Source: a virus
Virus record (IMG/VR): IMGVR_UViG_3300035099_000030
Span: 1 to 35,853 of that record
DNA: 35,853 nt
Strand: one strand, 5' to 3'
Position 1 is the stretch's first letter, and every line of letters starts with the position of its first letter. A program made the translations under genes and the position numbers. Below the pieces are notes generated by a model that saw only the letters and a list, made by a program, of their open reading frames with translations, was not told the DNA's origin and did not search any database. Of the stretch, positions 1,730-23,271 are shown piece after piece.

Positions 1730-1982
1730 TAAAATTTGTTATGCGTGCGGAGAGGATGTTCTCGTCGAAGATTTCTATTGTTGGAATTGTGGCGCTCCGC
1801 TTCTCACAAACAAAAGTCAGTGTTGGCAGTGCAAAGCGGTCACGGATACGAAGTTTGTTTTTTGTCCGATGTGCGGTCATGCTCTTGTGGGAATCAGGCA
1901 GATGAACTGTAAGTTGTGCGGCAAGCCATTCATTGCAAAGTTGCCGAACGACGAGTTATGTGCTAAATGTAAAAGCAAGTAA
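1704..1982 (+). CDS. Small multi-zinc-ribbon protein
   Basis: A 92-residue protein with six CxxC pairs (CYAC, CWNC, CWQC, CPMC, CKLC, CAKC). This is enough for three zinc ribbons in tandem, and little else is present. It overlaps the end of the terminase gene and sits directly before the portal. An upstream ATG at 1698 directly abuts the GGAGG at 1693-1697, so the ATG at 1704, six bases after that site, is the better start. Zinc ribbons of this type bind nucleic acid or protein, and the position suggests a link to packaging or to terminase/portal function. That role is inference; no specific family was recognised. Confidence 0.8.
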   Translation: MGQELQSFNKICYACGEDVLVEDFYCWNCGAPLLTNKSQCWQCKAVTDTKFVFCPMCGHALVGIRQMNCKLCGKPFIAKLPNDELCAKCKSK

Positions 1983-1992
1983 GGAGAGCGGT

Positions 1993-4752
1993 ATGGCTGA
2001 GGATAAAGTCGCGGATCAGAAAGAGCTTGATGGATTCATAGAAAGTCGCAAGCATCGGCAAGATCGTCATAGGGAGCAGAAAGCAAAGTCGGAAGACCTG
2101 CTTCTCAAAGTGATAACAGTTGGGGATAATATCCCGCCCCCTGAATCCAAGCAGCTCGATCCGACGCTGTTTGATATGTGCGAGCAGGTCGGGATTATCA
2201 TGCAACCGCTTTACAACCCGTTATTGTGGGCTTCGTTATTGGAGCAGAACACCCGTCTCAACCGCTGTATTGGAGCGATGTCACTAAACACAGTCGGCCT
2301 TGGATATGAATTTGTTCCCATCAAAGATTCCGAACAATGGCTTGAAGAGAACAGAGACGAAATCGCAAGAGAGAAAGAAGTCGTTGCGCCGTTGTTTGCG
2401 TATCCGAATAAAGAGTACCCGTTTCCTGAAATGATGCGTCGCATCAAGATGGACGAAGAATCGACTGGAATGGGTTACATGGAAGTGTCCCGATCCGCAG
2501 ACGATGTAATCAACGGAATGTACCACGCGCCAAGCCATACGATTCGCGTTCTCGCCGACGAGACCGGGTACGTCCAGTTGAGAGGAAAGTGGTTGAAGCA
2601 GCTTCCCAGCAGTTTGACTGGAAAGAAACCCAGCGGGCAACCGTCGGAAGAAGTGGTAAGAGCTGCGATGAAAGAAGCGCACGCGGTTTATTTCAAAAAG
2701 TTCGGCGACGATAGAATAATGGACGCGAGGACCGGCCAGTTTGTAGAGCCGGGTTCCATTCCTATCGAGCAGTATGCGAATGAAATGATTCAGTGGACGT
2801 TATACACTCCACGCTCATCTTTTTACGGAGTTCCAAGATTCGTGAGCGCCGCGCCCGCTATAACCGGCAATCGTCTTGCTCAGTTGGCCAATGTGGCGTT
2901 GTTTGAAAACGACGCGGTTCCAAGAATGGCAGTCATAGTAAGTGGCGGACAGTTGAGCGCGAAGAGCATGAAGATGATCGAGGACTTTATCACCTTCAAG
3001 GGGCGCGGTCCACAGAATCGCGGAAGAGTGATGATCCTTCAAGCCGCTCCCACTCAAGCCATCATAGACAAGGAAAACAAAACAAGCATTGAGCTCAAAC
3101 CGATCACTGTTGGAGTTACCGACGACGCGAGCTGGATAAAGTATCAAGATCGTAACGATGAAGAAGTTCGCGAAGCGTTCGGCATTGGAAAGATTTTTCT
3201 CGGAACCGCCACCGACGTGAACCGTGCCGTAGCATTTTGTTATTCCGCAGACACCGAGACGCTGACCGTAGACGGTTGGAAAAACTCGGCGGAATTAAAA
3301 AGCGTGGAAAAAATACTAGCCGTCGATCCCACTACCGGGCGCTCCGAGTTTATAGAGGCGAAATTGCATGTTTTCGATTACAAGGGAAAAATGCACAGGT
3401 TTGAAAATCAGGGCACTTGTTTTGAGGTAACGCCGGATCACAACGTATTGTATAGGACCGAGGGCAACGCATGGAAACGCGGCAAGGCGTCGAGCCTAGC
3501 TAAGATGAACAGGGTCTTCGTCAGAACGTGCCCCGACGGTATAAATAACCACGATACTCCTAACTCGATAATACCGGCGATGGAGGTCAAACGCGGAGCC
3601 AGTAAACTTTCGGCGGAGCGCAACAAAGAAATGGCGGTCAGCCCTAAAGCTCTGGCCGAGTTTGTAGGGTATTTCGTGTCCGAGGGTTTCTTGGGCGATA
3701 ACGAAAAAACCAAAAGGTACGTCGTAGGCGTCTCGCAGAACGAAGAAAAAAACCCTGTTGTGGCAAAAAAGATTCGCCGATGTCTGTCTAAGATTGCGCG
3801 TTTTTCCGAGACAAGCTACGACGATGGGATGGTTAGGTGGGCTACGAGCCTCAAAACTTTATGGACGTGGCTACGCGATAATTGCGGCAAGGGCGCGGCC
3901 AACAAACGGCTCCCCAAAGATTTTAGAACTTGGGGAAAGGAATATCTCGACGCGCTCTGGCAAGCGATGGTAGACGGAGACGGTCATACCAAGCCCGGCG
4001 ACAACGGAGGTCTTTCCGGGACTTATTTCACGATTTCAAAAACTCTTGCGGATCAATTTCACGAGTTGTGCGCTCTCACAGGCCATAGAGCGCAGATTAA
4101 GCCAGTTTTCGACAAAAGAAAAAATAGAAAGCCGGGGTTCGTTATTTGTTGGACGGAGCGGCGAGACATACAAATGTTTTTGAAGCAAGGCGAAGTGGAA
4201 GAGTACGATTATGCCGGTAGCGTGCATTGCTTTGAATTACCTCGTTGGCATTACTACGTTACTAGGAATCGAGGCAAGCTCGCGGTTCAGGGCAATACGA
4301 TGAAAGAGATCACGCTTGAGCAGACGTTCGAGCCGGAGATTCTTAGATACGAGTACATCATCAATGCTACCATCATGCGTTCGTTCGGCATCAAATACAT
4401 CAAGTTTGTTTTCAAAAGGCCGCAAGCGGTCAACAAGCAAGACATTGCGCGTTCGTTGCTCGACCTCGGCAGACTCGGAGGGGTTACTCCCAACGACGTG
4501 AGGCAAGAGAGGGGCAAAGAAAAGTTCCGTGCTTCGTGGGGCAATACTCCGATTGAGGTTTTGAAACTCGGACTCATGGAGCCGTCGGAAGAAGGAGGAT
4601 CAGAGATTTCGTTCGCGCCTTCGCAAGTACAAGGACAACCACCAGCGCTGACGGGAGGCGAAGAAGAAATTGAAGAGCTGAAAGCGCAATTGATTGCACT
4701 AGAAAATAAGCTCTCGGAGATAGAAAGAAAAAAAGTTTCTATTGCCAGTTGA
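1993..4752 (+). CDS. Portal protein, intein-containing precursor
   Basis: The portal forms the dodecameric ring at one capsid vertex through which DNA enters and to which the neck attaches. The N-terminal part (for example YNPLLWASLLEQNTRLNRC) and the segment FYGVPRFVSAAPAITGNRL are typical of PBSX/HK97-type phage portals. The precursor has 919 residues. Residues 416-768 are an intein, so the spliced portal is about 566 residues, a usual length. The join falls in the conserved stretch NRAVAF/TMKEITLEQTF. A coiled coil rich in Glu and Lys ends the protein. The ATG at 1993 was chosen over an in-frame start at 1933 because AAGGAG lies at 1981-1986. The -35 box of the only clear promoter in the window overlaps the stop codon. 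Confidence 0.92.
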   Translation: MAEDKVADQKELDGFIESRKHRQDRHREQKAKSEDLLLKVITVGDNIPPPESKQLDPTLFDMCEQVGIIMQPLYNPLLWASLLEQNTRLNRCIGAMSLNTVGLGYEFVPIKDSEQWLEENRDEIAREKEVVAPLFAYPNKEYPFPEMMRRIKMDEESTGMGYMEVSRSADDVINGMYHAPSHTIRVLADETGYVQLRGKWLKQLPSSLTGKKPSGQPSEEVVRAAMKEAHAVYFKKFGDDRIMDARTGQFVEPGSIPIEQYANEMIQWTLYTPRSSFYGVPRFVSAAPAITGNRLAQLANVALFENDAVPRMAVIVSGGQLSAKSMKMIEDFITFKGRGPQNRGRVMILQAAPTQAIIDKENKTSIELKPITVGVTDDASWIKYQDRNDEEVREAFGIGKIFLGTATDVNRAVAFCYSADTETLTVDGWKNSAELKSVEKILAVDPTTGRSEFIEAKLHVFDYKGKMHRFENQGTCFEVTPDHNVLYRTEGNAWKRGKASSLAKMNRVFVRTCPDGINNHDTPNSIIPAMEVKRGASKLSAERNKEMAVSPKALAEFVGYFVSEGFLGDNEKTKRYVVGVSQNEEKNPVVAKKIRRCLSKIARFSETSYDDGMVRWATSLKTLWTWLRDNCGKGAANKRLPKDFRTWGKEYLDALWQAMVDGDGHTKPGDNGGLSGTYFTISKTLADQFHELCALTGHRAQIKPVFDKRKNRKPGFVICWTERRDIQMFLKQGEVEEYDYAGSVHCFELPRWHYYVTRNRGKLAVQGNTMKEITLEQTFEPEILRYEYIINATIMRSFGIKYIKFVFKRPQAVNKQDIARSLLDLGRLGGVTPNDVRQERGKEKFRASWGNTPIEVLKLGLMEPSEEGGSEISFAPSQVQGQPPALTGGEEEIEELKAQLIALENKLSEIERKKVSIAS
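3238..4296 (+). mobile_element. LAGLIDADG intein in the portal gene
   Basis: An in-frame, self-splicing protein insertion of 353 residues. It starts with Cys (CYSADTETLTVDGWK, splicing block A), has a block B with TPDH (Thr480, His483 of the precursor), and ends LAVQGN followed by Thr (blocks F/G; the upstream WHYYV supplies the block F His). The middle carries two LAGLIDADG-type helices, LAEFVGYFVSEGF (from about residue 554) and YLDALWQAMVDGDG (from about residue 651). It is therefore a homing-endonuclease intein that could spread into intein-free portal alleles. The penultimate residue is Gly rather than the usual His. Boundaries follow from the Cys1, terminal Asn and +1 Thr rules and from restored portal homology; the splice itself is inferred. 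Confidence 0.92.
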
Positions 4753-17014: not shown

Positions 17015-17260
17015 ATGAAGCTGAAGAACGCGACGCCGAGAATAATGCCTCTTAATGTGCCATCTGGTTCGTTGCATGTACGTCCCGGTGAAGTTATCGA
17101 AGCCACCGCAGAGTTACTCGAATCGAGGGATGTGCAGAAGAGCATCGAGTACGGATGGCTTAAAGAGGTAACGGAGCCGGTGCAACACGCGCCGCAACCG
17201 GAAAAGAAAAAGTTTGGAAAGTCCTTCGATAAGGACGAGAAGAAAGGTGGAGGTGAATAA
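17015..17260 (+). CDS. Small pre-sheath protein
   Basis: An 81-residue protein with a strong AGGAGG site. The pattern LKNATPRIMPLNV then LHVRPGEVIEATAELL and GWLKEV matches short proteins commonly encoded just before the sheath in myovirus clusters. Their role is not established. The tail is Lys/Asp/Gly-rich. Its TAA overlaps the sheath ATG (TAATG). Confidence 0.7.
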   Translation: MKLKNATPRIMPLNVPSGSLHVRPGEVIEATAELLESRDVQKSIEYGWLKEVTEPVQHAPQPEKKKFGKSFDKDEKKGGGE

Positions 17261-19236
17261 TGAGTCAGTACGCACCGGGATTCTATATTCGAGAAGTAGA
17301 GACCCCTTCACAAGTCGAGGGAGTAAGCGTTGAGCTTTCGGGTATGGTCGGAGTTACCGAACGCGGTCCTGTAGATCGACCCATCTTGACGTTTTCCGAA
17401 GACGACTGGAGACGAAGATTCGGTGGCTACCTTAACGGCGCACCCGCGCCGATGTGCGTTAAGGATTACTACGAGCAGGGAGCGAGACCGCTGTACTTTG
17501 TTCGAGTGGTCGGCGCAGGAGCGGCAGAATCTCTTGGAGAGATCAACCCCTTCGGTGGCACATTAAAGACCATTGACCTGAAGGCAGCTTCGCCCGGAGA
17601 GTGGGGCGACAACATAATTATAAACACTCTCAAAGTCAGCTCAGTGCTGACCGCCGCGACGGCGGCTGGGAATTACACTGTAGTCGTAAGTTCGGTCGCG
17701 GGCTTCCAGCTCGGAGACGTAGTAAAGGTCGGCGCTGCCGGACCGTTCTTCATCGTCGGAATTACGACAACGACAAAGACGTTACGTCTTCACGCCCCGG
17801 TCGGAGCAATAGTCCCCGTTGGTAGCGCTGTCTATACGGCGACGCGACATAAAAGCCGCACGGCTTTGCAGGATGCGATACCGGACCCCGGCGATGCCTC
17901 ACAGATGCACGTTTCCGACATCAGTAACATTGGAGTAGGAGACGTGCTGATAGTTTACACCGGAACCAGTCCAACATCCCAAATTCTCCTCGAATTGTTG
18001 GTCACGAAAGTCAACGGGACGTATATAACCTATAGGCCGCTTAACAGCGTCATTGCAGGTCTTACTTCCGTTCCGGCGGGAGCGTGGGTAACGTCTACGG
18101 ATTTCAGCATAGACCTGTTCAATTCCAGCGAGTTCATCGAAACGTATGAATACCTTTCGATGAGATCGGAAGACAAGCAGGATTATGTCGATGTCAGGTT
18201 GGGTCCGTCCGGTGCAGATGGAAGCATCTGGATTGAAGTGACGGATTCCGTCAACACAGAGTTGATGAATTTCGAGTCGTTCCGGTATCCGATGCCCGTT
18301 TCAAACTACTCGCTTTCCGGCGGTCTCGACGGATCAGCGCCGTCGGATGACGACTATCTGGGGCTGAACGCCACAAAGACCTATCGGCACGGCATCAAGT
18401 TGTTTGACGGTATTGTCGGACTGGCCCAGGTCGGAATTCCGGGAGTGACAACCGCTGGAGTCCTCAAGGGCGCGGCGGCATGGGCGTATGCCAGACGGAC
18501 AACGTTGTTTGTCGGAGACATTCCACCCACGATAGACACCACCGAGGAAGCCGTGAACTTCCGCGAAGTCGATCTGAACTTGGACAATGACGAAATCTGC
18601 ATCTACCTGCCGTGGCATTACGACAGGCACCCTAAAGTGCCCGGCGCGGAGCTTCTTGTTCCGCCGTCCGGCAGAATGCTCGGAATAATGTCCGAGGTGT
18701 CGGCGCGAAGAGGCGTAAACAAAGCTCCGGCCAACGAACCGTACACAACGGCGATCAAGTTGGCGTGGGATGTCCCGCAAGGAGACCTTGGTCTGCTTAA
18801 CGAAGCGGGTATCAATGTTATCAGAACGTTCCCCGGACGCGGCATCCGCCCGTTCGGAGCACGGACGCTTGCGATGAACAAAGACGGCAAGCACTTCATC
18901 CCGATTCGCCGGGTTCTGAACTACGCGAAAGAATCCATCGCGCAGATAGGAAATAGATTCACGTTCGAGCCGATTACGGAAGACCTGTGGAGACAGTTGG
19001 AGACGGCAATATTGAGGTACTTCCGGCAATTGTGGCTCGAAGGCGTGCTCTATCCGAGAAACGATTTTTCACGAGCTGCGTTTGTCAGAATCGATGCCGG
19101 ACTTAATCCGCCAGACGTGGTTATTTCCGGTCGAGTAAACGGAAAAGCCGGGATTCAGCCCACACCGCCTGCGGAAGTAATTCTTTTCGACTTCTCGCTG
19201 TTCAGCGGTGGCGCTGAGTTTACCGAATTAACGTAA
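17260..19236 (+). CDS. Tail sheath protein with two inserted beta modules
   Basis: The 658-residue contractile sheath subunit that drives the tube through the envelope. Diagnostic parts are the N-terminus (YAPGFYIREVETPSQVEG, GMVGVTERGP), the segment LYFVRVVGAG, and the C-terminal domain (QLWLEGVLYPRNDFSRAAF, DVVISGRVNGKAGIQP). At SPGEWGDNIIINTLKVS the family sequence breaks off at about residue 128 and resumes near 282 (FSIDLFNSSEFIETYEYL). The intervening 150 residues hold two similar beta modules (about 128-193 and 206-280), which probably decorate the outer tail surface. GGAGG precedes the ATG. Confidence 0.95.
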   Translation: MSQYAPGFYIREVETPSQVEGVSVELSGMVGVTERGPVDRPILTFSEDDWRRRFGGYLNGAPAPMCVKDYYEQGARPLYFVRVVGAGAAESLGEINPFGGTLKTIDLKAASPGEWGDNIIINTLKVSSVLTAATAAGNYTVVVSSVAGFQLGDVVKVGAAGPFFIVGITTTTKTLRLHAPVGAIVPVGSAVYTATRHKSRTALQDAIPDPGDASQMHVSDISNIGVGDVLIVYTGTSPTSQILLELLVTKVNGTYITYRPLNSVIAGLTSVPAGAWVTSTDFSIDLFNSSEFIETYEYLSMRSEDKQDYVDVRLGPSGADGSIWIEVTDSVNTELMNFESFRYPMPVSNYSLSGGLDGSAPSDDDYLGLNATKTYRHGIKLFDGIVGLAQVGIPGVTTAGVLKGAAAWAYARRTTLFVGDIPPTIDTTEEAVNFREVDLNLDNDEICIYLPWHYDRHPKVPGAELLVPPSGRMLGIMSEVSARRGVNKAPANEPYTTAIKLAWDVPQGDLGLLNEAGINVIRTFPGRGIRPFGARTLAMNKDGKHFIPIRRVLNYAKESIAQIGNRFTFEPITEDLWRQLETAILRYFRQLWLEGVLYPRNDFSRAAFVRIDAGLNPPDVVISGRVNGKAGIQPTPPAEVILFDFSLFSGGAEFTELT

Positions 19237-19248
19237 GGAGGCGCTTAA

Positions 19249-19761
19249 ATGGCACAAGGATATGTAACAGGTAAGAGAAAAGACCCGTATCGGCAGTTCG
19301 GTTTCCGAGTAATCAGAGCCGATGGAACGGTTCTGGGAGCCTTCCATAAGGTGTCGGGGCTTCACGCGGAAATAGAAGTTACCGATTACCGCGAAGGTGA
19401 CGAAGCGGCTCGCGTCAGAAAGATACCGGGTCTTGCAAGTTTCGATAATATCGTCCTTGAACGCGGCATCGACACGGACAACATTATGTATAACTGGTTC
19501 CGAAAAGTATTTAATCTTTTCGGCCAAGCCAAACCGGACGACGAGTTCAGGGACGACATCTTTATTATCCTTCTCGATCATCGCGGCATCGAAGTGAAAC
19601 GATGGAAGTGCTACGAATGCTGGCCTGCCGTCTATGAGGCCGATGACCTCGATGCGCAATCGTCCGATATTCTGTTCGAGAGGATAGAGCTTGCGAATGA
19701 AGGCTGGGAGCCGGTGGAGACCGGAGTGAATGTAGCGAAATTCGTAAACCTCCCTTTCTAA
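19249..19761 (+). CDS. Tail tube protein
   Basis: A 170-residue T4 gp19/P2 FII-type tube subunit that stacks inside the sheath. Typical elements are PYRQFGFRVIRADGTVLGAF, the FHKVSGLHAEIEV loop, NIVLERGIDTDN and the C-terminal ELANEGWEPV. It follows the sheath with TAAGGAGG as stop plus ribosome site, the standard sheath-tube pair. Confidence 0.94.
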   Translation: MAQGYVTGKRKDPYRQFGFRVIRADGTVLGAFHKVSGLHAEIEVTDYREGDEAARVRKIPGLASFDNIVLERGIDTDNIMYNWFRKVFNLFGQAKPDDEFRDDIFIILLDHRGIEVKRWKCYECWPAVYEADDLDAQSSDILFERIELANEGWEPVETGVNVAKFVNLPF

Positions 19762-19840
19762 ATAATAACCACGATTGTTCGTTGAACGCCGTATGTCGAT
19801 GAGTCGTTCATACGAGGCAGCTACGAATGAGGAGGATTAA
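19762..19840. other. Short intergenic region with a weak dyad
   Basis: A 79-base gap between tube and chaperone genes, one of the few real gaps. It holds an imperfect inverted repeat (GTATG 19791-19795 with CATAC 19809-19813; CGA/TCG inside). AGGAGG lies just before the next ATG. No convincing promoter or terminator was seen. Confidence 0.4.
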
Positions 19841-20695
19841 ATGTCTGATGAGAGGAAAAATTACAACGAAGTAGTTGATGAGGCCCCGCCGCTGGGAGTC
19901 CAAACCCCGGACCCCGGAGTTGAGGCACCTTCGGCAAACGTCGCAGTAGGAAGCCAAGTTTTTGAGCTTCCCTGCGGCGTTTTGCTTGATGGAATAAACC
20001 ACAAGGAAGTGGAACTTACGCCGCTCACCTCTGGGGACAGAAAAACCGTCATTGACACCAAAGTAAGACGAAATAGCGGAAAGATCATTACGTCGCTTCT
20101 CGCCAAACGCATCAAACGTATTGGGGATTTGCCGCCGAGCGAAGCTATTGTAAAGAAGATGCTCGCGCCGGACAGGGACTTTTGCGTATTGATGGTTGGA
20201 AAGATGACCGTCGGAAACATTCTCCACATGACCGCGCAATGTCCTAGCTGCCAGTCGGACTTGGACGTTGACATCAACGTGGACGACATCGAAATTCGTC
20301 GCATGACCCCAGAAGACTATGCGAGAGTTACCGATAAGGGAGAGTGGTATTTCGACGGCACGCTTCTCAATAAATATAAAGTTCGGTTCAAGTATCCGTC
20401 GGGAGAGGTGAACGAAGCGATAAGCGAGAACGCCCGCGCCAATCCTATTGAAGCGGAGTTCAAACTTTTAGCGAAGATGATGCTGTCGTGGAATGGCGGC
20501 AAGCCGCTTTCGATCGTCGACTTCGAAAATCTTCCGCTTCCGCTCATGGATGCGATGGAAGATTTAATCCTGAAGAATGCGAAAGGACCAGACCTGACTC
20601 CGCAGATGCGATGTGAGCAGTGCGGAGCGCAGACGCGCATTCAGATAGACCTGACGGATTTTTTATTCCGTCGCCGACTCACGCGCAACAAATAG
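19841..20695 (+). CDS. Tail assembly chaperone (zero-frame product)
   Basis: A 284-residue protein of the T4 gp26-like/lambda G-like group that keeps the tape measure soluble during tail assembly. Recognisable parts are the strand-rich start (VFELPCGVLLDGINH, VELTPLTSGDRK), NSGKIITSLLAKRIKRIGDL, the helical MVGKMTVGNILHMTAQ, and two CxxC pairs (CPSC near residue 135, CEQC near 259) that could bind one zinc. Near its 3' end is a T_TTT_TTA heptamer that should send a fraction of ribosomes into the -1 frame. It has a strong GAGGAGG site. It lies directly before the tape measure, as expected. Confidence 0.82.
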   Translation: MSDERKNYNEVVDEAPPLGVQTPDPGVEAPSANVAVGSQVFELPCGVLLDGINHKEVELTPLTSGDRKTVIDTKVRRNSGKIITSLLAKRIKRIGDLPPSEAIVKKMLAPDRDFCVLMVGKMTVGNILHMTAQCPSCQSDLDVDINVDDIEIRRMTPEDYARVTDKGEWYFDGTLLNKYKVRFKYPSGEVNEAISENARANPIEAEFKLLAKMMLSWNGGKPLSIVDFENLPLPLMDAMEDLILKNAKGPDLTPQMRCEQCGAQTRIQIDLTDFLFRRRLTRNK

Positions 20696-20704
20696 CAACG
20701 ACGG
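20659..20704 (+). promoter_or_regulatory. -1 programmed frameshift signal
   Basis: The heptamer T_TTT_TTA at 20659-20665 is in the correct register for the chaperone frame (codons TTT 20660, TTA 20663). A perfect six-base stem follows: CCGTCG (20668-20673) with CGACGG (20699-20704), whose loop contains the zero-frame stop (TAG at 20693-20695). Slippage moves ribosomes into the frame that runs to 20889. The two-base spacer between heptamer and stem is shorter than usual, so the real stimulator may be a different fold. Confidence 0.8.
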
Positions 20705-20889
20705 TAGATCGAATGATGTTTGCCCTCGCTTTGGAGTTGGGGTGGGGGTATCAGGAAATGATGGAAATGTCGTATGGAGAATTAACCAAGTTTTATCAAA
20801 TGCTCGAAGAGTATTTGGATGCCAAGCATCGCGCCGAACAAAGAGCAGCATCAGCAGCGCGGGCAAAAAGAGGAAGAAGGAGACGATAA
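20665..20889 (+). CDS. Frameshift extension of the tail chaperone (T-like domain)
   Basis: An in-frame -1 extension of 74 residues, starting IPSPTHAQQIATTVDRMMF after the slip, giving a fusion of about 349 residues. It is helical (ALALELGWGYQEMMEMSYGE), then strongly basic (RAKRGRRRR), much like the T part of lambda G-GT and equivalents in P2 and Mu, which contacts the tape measure. The ATG at 20713 and the GTG at 20620 lack a convincing ribosome binding site. Independent translation is therefore less likely than frameshifting. The tape measure starts immediately afterwards. Confidence 0.78.
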   Translation: MPSPTHAQQIATTVDRMMFALALELGWGYQEMMEMSYGELTKFYQMLEEYLDAKHRAEQRAASAARAKRGRRRR

Positions 20890-23271
20890 GTGGGACTTGT
20901 CGGCAGGGCAGGGTTCGGAATAGATATTTCGATCAACGTTGATGGCGTTGCTAATCTTGAAGCCGCCAACGACGCACTCGCTGAAACCCAGCAGAATGCG
21001 AAGGGTGTCAGCGGTAATCTGAACCAAGTAAGTAGCATGGCCAAGAAGACGGGGGCGGTTATGGTCGGCATGGGCGCTGCTATTGCCGCCCCGTTGGTCA
21101 TGGGAACCAAGATGGCGATTGGTTTCAACCAGTCGATGACCTTGCTCTCTGCTATTGATCCGAGCGCCAACATCAAGGAGTTGGGAGACGCGATTGTTAA
21201 AGCCGCCGCGCCAGTTCCAGCATCCGCGCAAGACATGGCGGATATGGCGATTGTTGCCGCCAAGATGGGTGTTCAGGGCAAGGATGCGATCATAGCGTTC
21301 GCTCAATCGGCTATTATGTTGCAAGCGTCCACCGACATTATGGGTGAAGACGCGGCGAATGCGCTGTCCAGAATCAATGACACGTTTCAGACATCGGTAA
21401 AGTTTGGAGGCGATCTTCAGAAAGCCATTAACGCGATTGGATCGTCCTTGATTTCGTTGGATAGCGCGTCGAAAGCCAGCGCGAGTGAGATTGTAGACGT
21501 CACTCTCCGCGCCACGCAAGCCACGAAAGCGTTTGGATTGTCTGAAGGAGAGACGATGGCGGTCGGCGCAACGCTTCTCGATATGGGTGTAAGCGCTGAA
21601 ACAGCCGGAACCAATCTGGGCAAAGTTCTTAACACGATTCTGATAGGTCGTGATAAAATATCCAAGTTTGTCGCTTCTCAGAAACTCATGGTGGACGGCA
21701 CTCGATTGACCGCGCGAGGGTTTAACGATATGCTGACAAATAACCCGGCGAAGGCTTTGACCACTTTGTCGTCAGCGTTAGCGCAGGTAAATCCACAATT
21801 GCGTCCACAAGTTCTCGCAGACTTAGGTATCAATGGTCAGGGGGCAATCCGTGTAATGGGTGGTCTCGCAGATGCGACCCGACGTGCCGCTGTCGGACAA
21901 ACCGAATTTAACATGGAGAACAACGCTCTCGTTGCCATGATGCAAACTGGAAACTCCGAGTTTGCTAAGGGCACTGCGATGGGGGAGCGCTATGCGATAA
22001 TGATGCAATCCACCGCCGCCAAAATAGACATCGTAAAAGGAAGTCTTGAAACCTTCTTACAGCAAATGGGTAACTTTTTCCTTCCGATCATCGGCCGTGT
22101 TTTGGATATGGGAGCAAAACTGCTCGATTGGTTAATTAACTTGCCGGAGCCTGTTAAAAAAGCGATTGCGTATTTTATGACGTTCGCGTCTGTGGCGTTG
22201 ATTATCGGTGGACTGGCTTTGATCTTTGTCGGAGTCGTCGCTGGCATCATGGCTACAGTTGCCGCCGCTGGAGGGCTTGCCGCTGTTTTCGCAGGAATAG
22301 GAGGAGTTGTCGCGGCGATTGGTTCAACGCTCGCGTGGTTCATTGGAATCGTCGCCGGAGTAGCCGCGATAGGGTATGTATTGTGGAATGTTTTCGGCAC
22401 TGTTCTGAAGCAGGCATTCGCCGACCTCATGCCTACCATCATGGCGGTATGGGATGCGTTGGGTTTATTGTGGGCGAAGATTACCGGAGGGGTGTCCACT
22501 GGTCAGACCCTCATAAATATATTTAAGGCGATAGCGGGTGCAGTATGGACTCTAGTAGGACCGATTTTGCAACTTGGAATGATCATCTTGTCGTATGTTG
22601 TGATGTCGCTCCAGACGGCGATTGCGACGATAAGCGGGTTAATCAATTTTGTTTATAACATGGTCGTCGCCATTGCCGCGCTCGCGTCAGGGTTCATCTC
22701 GTTGAGGGATTTTGTGAACTTGTGCCTGATTTCACTGATGGAGTTTGGAATCAAGATCGTCAAGGTTTTGCTCACGCCGCTCCAAAAGTTACTCGATACG
22801 CTTGCCGCAGTTGGAGTGATGGGTCAGAAAGACATCTTGAGTGGTGTCGATAACATGGTGAAGGGACTCGAATACGAGCGCGAGCAGATATTGAAGACGC
22901 AGGAGCAGGAGAAAGCCGCCGCCGTTTCCGCGCAACCAACGGTTCCCGGAGCGCCCGCGCCCGCTGGAGTGAAGCCCGCACCCGTCGCAGGAGTGCCCGC
23001 TACCGCTCCCACTGCTCCTACAGCGCCCGCAACTGGAGCCGCCGCTCCTCCAATCGCCACGGTCGCGCCTGCAGGCGCCGTAGGCGTCAGAGTGCCCCCG
23101 CCGGGCGCGATGCCGGGTAAAGGATTCAAGGCGACGGTTGAAGTGAAGAACGCAAACACATTGAAAGTCGAATCGACGGTTAAGATGGATAGTTATGTGT
23201 TCGGCAAAGCCGTGAAAGAAATTACGAACGAGCTTATCGACCGCCGCTTGGCAGCGGTGACGCAGGAGTAA
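20890..23271 (+). CDS. Tape measure protein
   Basis: A 793-residue protein that sets tail length and leads DNA ejection. It has the TP901-type core (MAKKTGAVMVGMGAAIAAPL, GFNQSMTLLSAI, GVQGKDAIIAFAQSAIM). It also has a strongly hydrophobic central part (about 420-540) that can insert in the host membrane. A Pro/Ala/Val linker (about 675-743) and a short beta-rich end (TLKVESTVKMDSYVFGKAV) follow. The usual 0.15 nm per residue rule would give a tail of about 120 nm, a rough inference. The GTG start directly follows the chaperone extension's stop, with AAGGAG upstream. Confidence 0.93.
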   Translation: MGLVGRAGFGIDISINVDGVANLEAANDALAETQQNAKGVSGNLNQVSSMAKKTGAVMVGMGAAIAAPLVMGTKMAIGFNQSMTLLSAIDPSANIKELGDAIVKAAAPVPASAQDMADMAIVAAKMGVQGKDAIIAFAQSAIMLQASTDIMGEDAANALSRINDTFQTSVKFGGDLQKAINAIGSSLISLDSASKASASEIVDVTLRATQATKAFGLSEGETMAVGATLLDMGVSAETAGTNLGKVLNTILIGRDKISKFVASQKLMVDGTRLTARGFNDMLTNNPAKALTTLSSALAQVNPQLRPQVLADLGINGQGAIRVMGGLADATRRAAVGQTEFNMENNALVAMMQTGNSEFAKGTAMGERYAIMMQSTAAKIDIVKGSLETFLQQMGNFFLPIIGRVLDMGAKLLDWLINLPEPVKKAIAYFMTFASVALIIGGLALIFVGVVAGIMATVAAAGGLAAVFAGIGGVVAAIGSTLAWFIGIVAGVAAIGYVLWNVFGTVLKQAFADLMPTIMAVWDALGLLWAKITGGVSTGQTLINIFKAIAGAVWTLVGPILQLGMIILSYVVMSLQTAIATISGLINFVYNMVVAIAALASGFISLRDFVNLCLISLMEFGIKIVKVLLTPLQKLLDTLAAVGVMGQKDILSGVDNMVKGLEYEREQILKTQEQEKAAAVSAQPTVPGAPAPAGVKPAPVAGVPATAPTAPTAPATGAAAPPIATVAPAGAVGVRVPPPGAMPGKGFKATVEVKNANTLKVESTVKMDSYVFGKAVKEITNELIDRRLAAVTQE

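Follow-up and report, generated by a model that had tools for sequence, protein, structure and literature searches.

The chaperone gene and its neighbours

The stretch of DNA analysed here (henceforth the window) is IMG/VR virus record IMGVR_UViG_3300035099_000030, a single record of 35,853 bases from an uncultivated contractile-tail phage. Its tail genes follow the order sheath, tube, chaperone and tape measure, which places the chaperone where lambda has its G/GT genes. The features that concern us are these:

17260-19236, + strand: tail sheath (phrog_23, E 4.8e-52)
19249-19761, + strand: tail tube, gp19 family (PF06841, E 3.9e-36)
19830-19835, + strand: Shine-Dalgarno AGGAGG of the chaperone gene, identified by its sequence (duplex energy -12.3 kcal/mol)
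19841-20695, + strand: T4 gp26-type tail assembly chaperone, short form, 284 aa (PF12322, phrog_150)
20240-20251, + strand: first CXXC pair, C134/C137
20612-20623, + strand: second CXXC pair, C258/C261
20659-20665, + strand: slippery heptamer T_TTT_TTA, in register and homologous to the invariant T_TTT_TTC of relatives with a -1 extension
20665-20889, + strand: -1-frame extension, 74 aa and stop, a gp51/T-like helical basic domain of the putative long form
20668-20704, + strand: candidate stem, arms 20668-20673 and 20699-20704, judged a chance complement
20693-20695, + strand: zero-frame stop TAG
20713-20715, + strand: possible internal start ATG in the -1 frame (weak anti-SD duplex, -3.4 kcal/mol)
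20890-23271, + strand: tape measure protein (phrog_28, E 2.5e-40), GTG start

The chaperone matches the PF12322 (T4_baseplate) HMM with an E-value of 1.3e-12 and a score of 48.4 bits, above the curated cut-off of 24.5 and so within the family, and it matches the baseplate hub family phrog_150 with an E-value of 1.1e-12. Both CXXC pairs are invariant across the aligned family members (n=9); the gp26-like chaperone of the initial annotation is borne out, with two such pairs. An AlphaFold2 model of the protein (pLDDT 87) resembles T4-like baseplate hub assembly proteins in BFVD (E about 1e-17 to 1e-15), its best match overall being an uncharacterised protein of Bacillus phage BCD7 (1e-20). Among PDB structures, residues 24-134 of the model come closest to YqbN (3klu, Z 7.1), the HK97 tail assembly chaperone (2ob9, Z 6.9) and RBSTP2171 (3fgx, Z 6.2), after which Z falls to 4.9; all of these values are below 8 and of a size that can reflect a common fold. 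We take 3klu and 3fgx to be tail assembly chaperones as well, and the comparison is suggestive of a predicted fold closest to the HK97-type tail assembly chaperones. A profile of the chaperone found no match among the sequences of solved structures.

Frame geometry and the -1-frame extension

In the zero frame the chaperone gene ends GAT TTT TTA TTC CGT CGC CGA CTC ACG CGC AAC AAA TAG, and the heptamer T_TTT_TTA lies in register within it, nine codons from the end of the gene. In the -1 frame, ATT at 20665-20667 leads into 74 residues (IPSP...GRRRR) that finish at TAA 20887-20889, directly adjoining the GTG of the tape measure gene at 20890. Both the register of the heptamer (GAT TTT TTA TTC CGT, 20659-20665) and the open -1 frame, claimed when the locus was first described, are therefore as claimed, and an ORF in a second frame overlaps the chaperone with an in-phase slippery site inside the overlap, an arrangement of the lambda G/GT type. 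Taken alone, T_TTT_TTA is only mildly unusual: the window holds 27 in-frame X_XXY_YYZ heptamers in 9603 codons, the chance that any such heptamer falls within the 25-codon overlap is about 0.07, and the in-frame rate of TTTTTTN in the window (0.0005 per codon) implies about 1% for the same overlap. Its significance comes instead from its position and type, which match those in relatives.

The case that the -1 frame encodes protein rests first on homology. A profile of the extension domains of relatives, built without the window sequence and compared with all 441 stop-to-stop ORFs of the window, ranked the -1 ORF first of 441 (E 3.5e-5; the next scored 2.8). When single-group profiles were used, only the 'firm' group (SP-15-like) found the window extension by itself (E 6e-4), and the cyano, jumbo, brock and mar2 profiles, each alone, gave no match to it; the homology of the extension thus rests mainly on the pooled profile. 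Aligned by hhalign with 26 extensions, mostly from relatives with a +1 arrangement, the -1 extension reached a probability of 72% against 0.6% for a +1-frame decoy, and the tail protein family phrog_337 matched it with an E-value of 0.0011. Codon statistics across the extension region, expressed per codon, are 0.064 for the -1 frame, -0.024 for the +1 frame and -0.45 for the zero frame. They favour the -1 frame over both others, though the real genes of the window score 0.19 +/- 0.07, so that the extension lies 1.8 SD below them, which counts against it. On these comparisons the -1-frame product is a genuine protein domain, in keeping with the basic helical domain first proposed. DUF6760 was tried as its family and rejected, since the BRock extension reached only E 0.2 and the window gave no match.

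The initial annotation also placed a perfect six-base stem two bases after the heptamer, with the zero-frame stop inside it. The complement is real (CCGTCG at 20668-20673 and CGACGG at 20699-20704) and it does begin 2 nt past the heptamer, where the usual spacer is 5-9 nt, but the stop sits in the loop and outside the stem itself. The stem does not rise above chance, because a 6-bp stem beginning 0-9 nt after the site is found at 6% of random sites and the minimum free energy z-scores of the region, relative to random sites in the window, are not unusual (-0.75 to +0.9). In folds of at least 60 nt, the minimum-energy structure does not contain it; RNAalifold returned no consensus structure for the 60 nt past the heptamer in 73 relatives; and no Shine-Dalgarno-like stimulator is evident upstream. 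The window lacks the stable structure, 5-9 nt 3' of the heptamer, that marks a stem-loop-stimulated -1 signal, and the suggestion that the stem acts as the frameshift stimulator is unsupported.

A putative recoding site shared by distant relatives

Searches of viral contigs, phages and plasmids, whether by DNA or by the protein of the chaperone, tube or sheath gene, found no close relatives, and the comparison is with distant members of the T4 family. The cyanophage-type gp26 genes taken from IMG/VR (77/77) have an invariant in-frame T_TTT_TTC at homologous FF codons, two codons upstream of the stop, and the extension follows in -1; third codon positions upstream are conserved 59% on average, by comparison with this invariant heptamer. 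The same heptamer and -1 extension occur in the isolates S-SM1, P-SSM4, S-CAM22, Atu_ph07, Phosso, Vibrio 2.275.O, PA5oct, Munch and CBB, several of these relatives being jumbo phages, and in six further IMG/VR loci (L048, L051-L055), while one locus (L056) has T_TTT_TTT at the homologous place. The slip site of the window falls on codons homologous to the Phe codons of these relatives, and the arrangement is conserved at the level of the family, as T_TTT_TTC (once T_TTT_TTT) wherever distant relatives have a -1 extension; in other relatives the extension is in +1. The small ORF annotated as 'gp51' in cyanophages (L058, L059, L067-L146) most probably forms the C-terminal end of the gp26 -1 product and is no gene of its own.

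An alternative is that the extension in the window is a separate small gene of 58 aa with ATG 20713 or 20716 as its start codon, in the manner of the usual cyanophage 'gp51' annotation. The 58-aa ORF that begins at ATG 20713 does resemble the small genes annotated in relatives. Yet its ribosome-binding site is weak (-3.4 kcal/mol for ATG 20713/20716, whereas the chaperone has -12.3 and the tape measure -8.8; a value of -9.1 for ATG 20716, obtained with a longer anti-SD string, is attributed to an additional GAUC there), the open -1 frame extends upstream across the heptamer, the heptamer of relatives is invariant beyond what the protein requires, and T4 has its long form as a fusion. We consider a separate gene improbable.

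In two clades of T4-type chaperones (L016-L046 and L147-L161) the extension lies in +1 (or -2), and in the records read these extensions are either annotated as a separate gene or unannotated. Their usual site is GAR TTY TTT CGT or CTN TTT C, mostly with TTT_C: SP-15-like loci often have GAR TTY TTT CGT CCN, and BRock-like loci have CTN TTT CNN, with TTT used at the site in 11/11 distinct genes against 42% elsewhere there. The sites of both clades are likely +1 frameshift sites.

The BRock-type Streptomyces phages are the nearest known relatives of the window by identity, with limited tree support, and a +1 extension in such neighbours counts against a -1 shift here. A tree of 43 sequences joins the window (94/85) to the +1 clade of BRock, the branch being very long (1.92). 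Two changes of the -1/+1 label are required on this tree; the pattern suggests that slip direction has flipped at a fixed site, the placement of the window being unsure. It could accordingly be argued that ribosomes in this phage enter the +1 frame, which is open for 81 codons past the chaperone stop (20696-20942), and that the -1 ORF is open by chance. We think this very improbable: the +1 product matches none of the extension profiles, its codon score is the lower of the two (-0.024 vs 0.064), the +1 ORF overlaps the start of the tape measure gene, and the window site is without the TTT_C motif, so that by codon score, extension profiles and slip site the gene does not belong with the +1-class chaperones of BRock or SP-15 type. 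It is just as hard to credit that an indel of sequencing or assembly in the T run has split one continuous gene, even though the break sits in a homopolymer (T6), where such errors are common, and the sequence comes from a single record, since a two-frame layout at these codons is also seen in isolate genomes of T4-family relatives and two forms are a requirement of the family.

A further reading, which we rate somewhat below even odds, is that the T4-type chaperones are one family with a fixed recoding site at Phe codons, shifted +1 at TTT_C in two clades and -1 at T_TTT_TTH in the others, and that this phage is an independent -1 lineage. If so, slip direction can flip while the output of short and long forms is kept, here in a phage whose neighbours are +1 Streptomyces phages. 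A match to Gordonia phage Pupper was set aside as chance, involving small genes at the genome end.

Proposed mechanism and known systems

A -1 programmed frameshift with G/GT-type logic, the central claim of the initial annotation, is supported by the in-register heptamer, the homology of the extension and the conserved arrangement in relatives, and is very likely real. We consider it highly probable that a short form ending at the TAG is accompanied by a minority -1 slip on T_TTT_TTA that adds the 74-residue domain, and we infer the occurrence of slippage, its rate and its role in assembly as follows. Most ribosomes would end at TAG 20693 and release the short form of 284 aa. A minority would slip back one base on the heptamer, simultaneous -1 slippage being the simplest reading: the P-site Phe-tRNA would move from TTT to TTT, and in the A site either a Leu-tRNA would move from TTA to TTT or a Phe-tRNA would arrive straight in the new frame. 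The shifted ribosomes would then read ATT CCG TCG and onwards, adding the helical basic domain that ends at 20889, to give a less abundant long form with DFL/IPSP or DFF/IPSP at its junction. If lambda gpG/gpGT is a guide, the short part would coat the tape measure and the extension would recruit tube subunits.

The HIV-1 gag-pol site has the identical heptamer, U_UUU_UUA, in an unrelated gene. HIV frameshifting uses a 3' stem-loop at normal spacing, for which the window has no supported counterpart. In the HIV case, the second slip codon is decoded as 70-80% Leu and 20-30% Phe (PMC5009743). According to the same source, U_UUU_UUA shifts far less readily in E. coli than A_AAA_AAG does, which counts against a -1 reading, although a low slip efficiency would fit a long form made in small amounts. 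The source also reports that shifts in tail chaperones are -1, -2 or +1, depending on the phage.

The closest parallel is the gp26/gp51 system of cyanophages (Kyanoviridae: S-SM1, P-SSM4, S-CAM22), which has a PF12322 chaperone, a helical -1 extension and a poly-T heptamer near the end of the gene; it differs in the heptamer itself (T_TTT_TTC, where the window has T_TTT_TTA), and the chaperones are about 13-17% identical. Lambda G/GT likewise yields short and long chaperone forms by a -1 shift, immediately upstream of the gene for the tape measure. The lambda heptamer is GGGAAAG, unlike that of the window, whose chaperone is about twice as long, has zinc-binding CXXC pairs and shows no demonstrated sequence homology to lambda G/GT. 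The BRock-type (Streptomyces) and SP-15-type (Bacillus) chaperones differ in having the extension in +1 (or -2), mostly at TTT_C, and the BRock type is without an X_XXY_YYZ heptamer.

In T4 itself, gp26 corresponds to the short form and gp51 to the PF12322 domain with a C-terminal extension. The two forms are two separate genes with no frameshift, because both proteins match PF12322 end to end, gp51 being about 48 residues longer, and the genes lie on opposite strands. That T4 makes its short and long forms from two genes is already published, on the evidence of the passage in PMC10885494 that cites Vladimirov et al. 2022, and PMC12846349 attributes to Vladimirov et al. 2022 the finding of -1 signals of poly-T type in the genes of T4-like chaperones. 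Since frameshifting in T4-like chaperones has been reported, at least as these citing papers describe it, the window is a divergent addition to a known system; the phage strategy is known, and this phage probably uses it in a very divergent lineage and with a slightly different slip sequence. A deeply divergent phage thereby joins the T4-type chaperones that use frameshifting, which supports reading the small 'gp51' ORF, often annotated separately in cyanophages and jumbo phages, as the C-terminus of a frameshift product. With +1 and -1 recoding at a single conserved site, the family also lends itself to a natural comparison of the two.

Elsewhere in the window, the portal gene (1933-4752) looks to be interrupted by an intein: a match to PF04860 extends to about residue 429 and is followed by CYSADTETLTV..., a weak LAGLIDADG_3 match (E 1e-3, residues 671-751) and ...LAVQGN, after which the portal sequence resumes. 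Just upstream of it, 1698-1982 encodes a small double zinc-ribbon protein (PF12773, E 2e-10).
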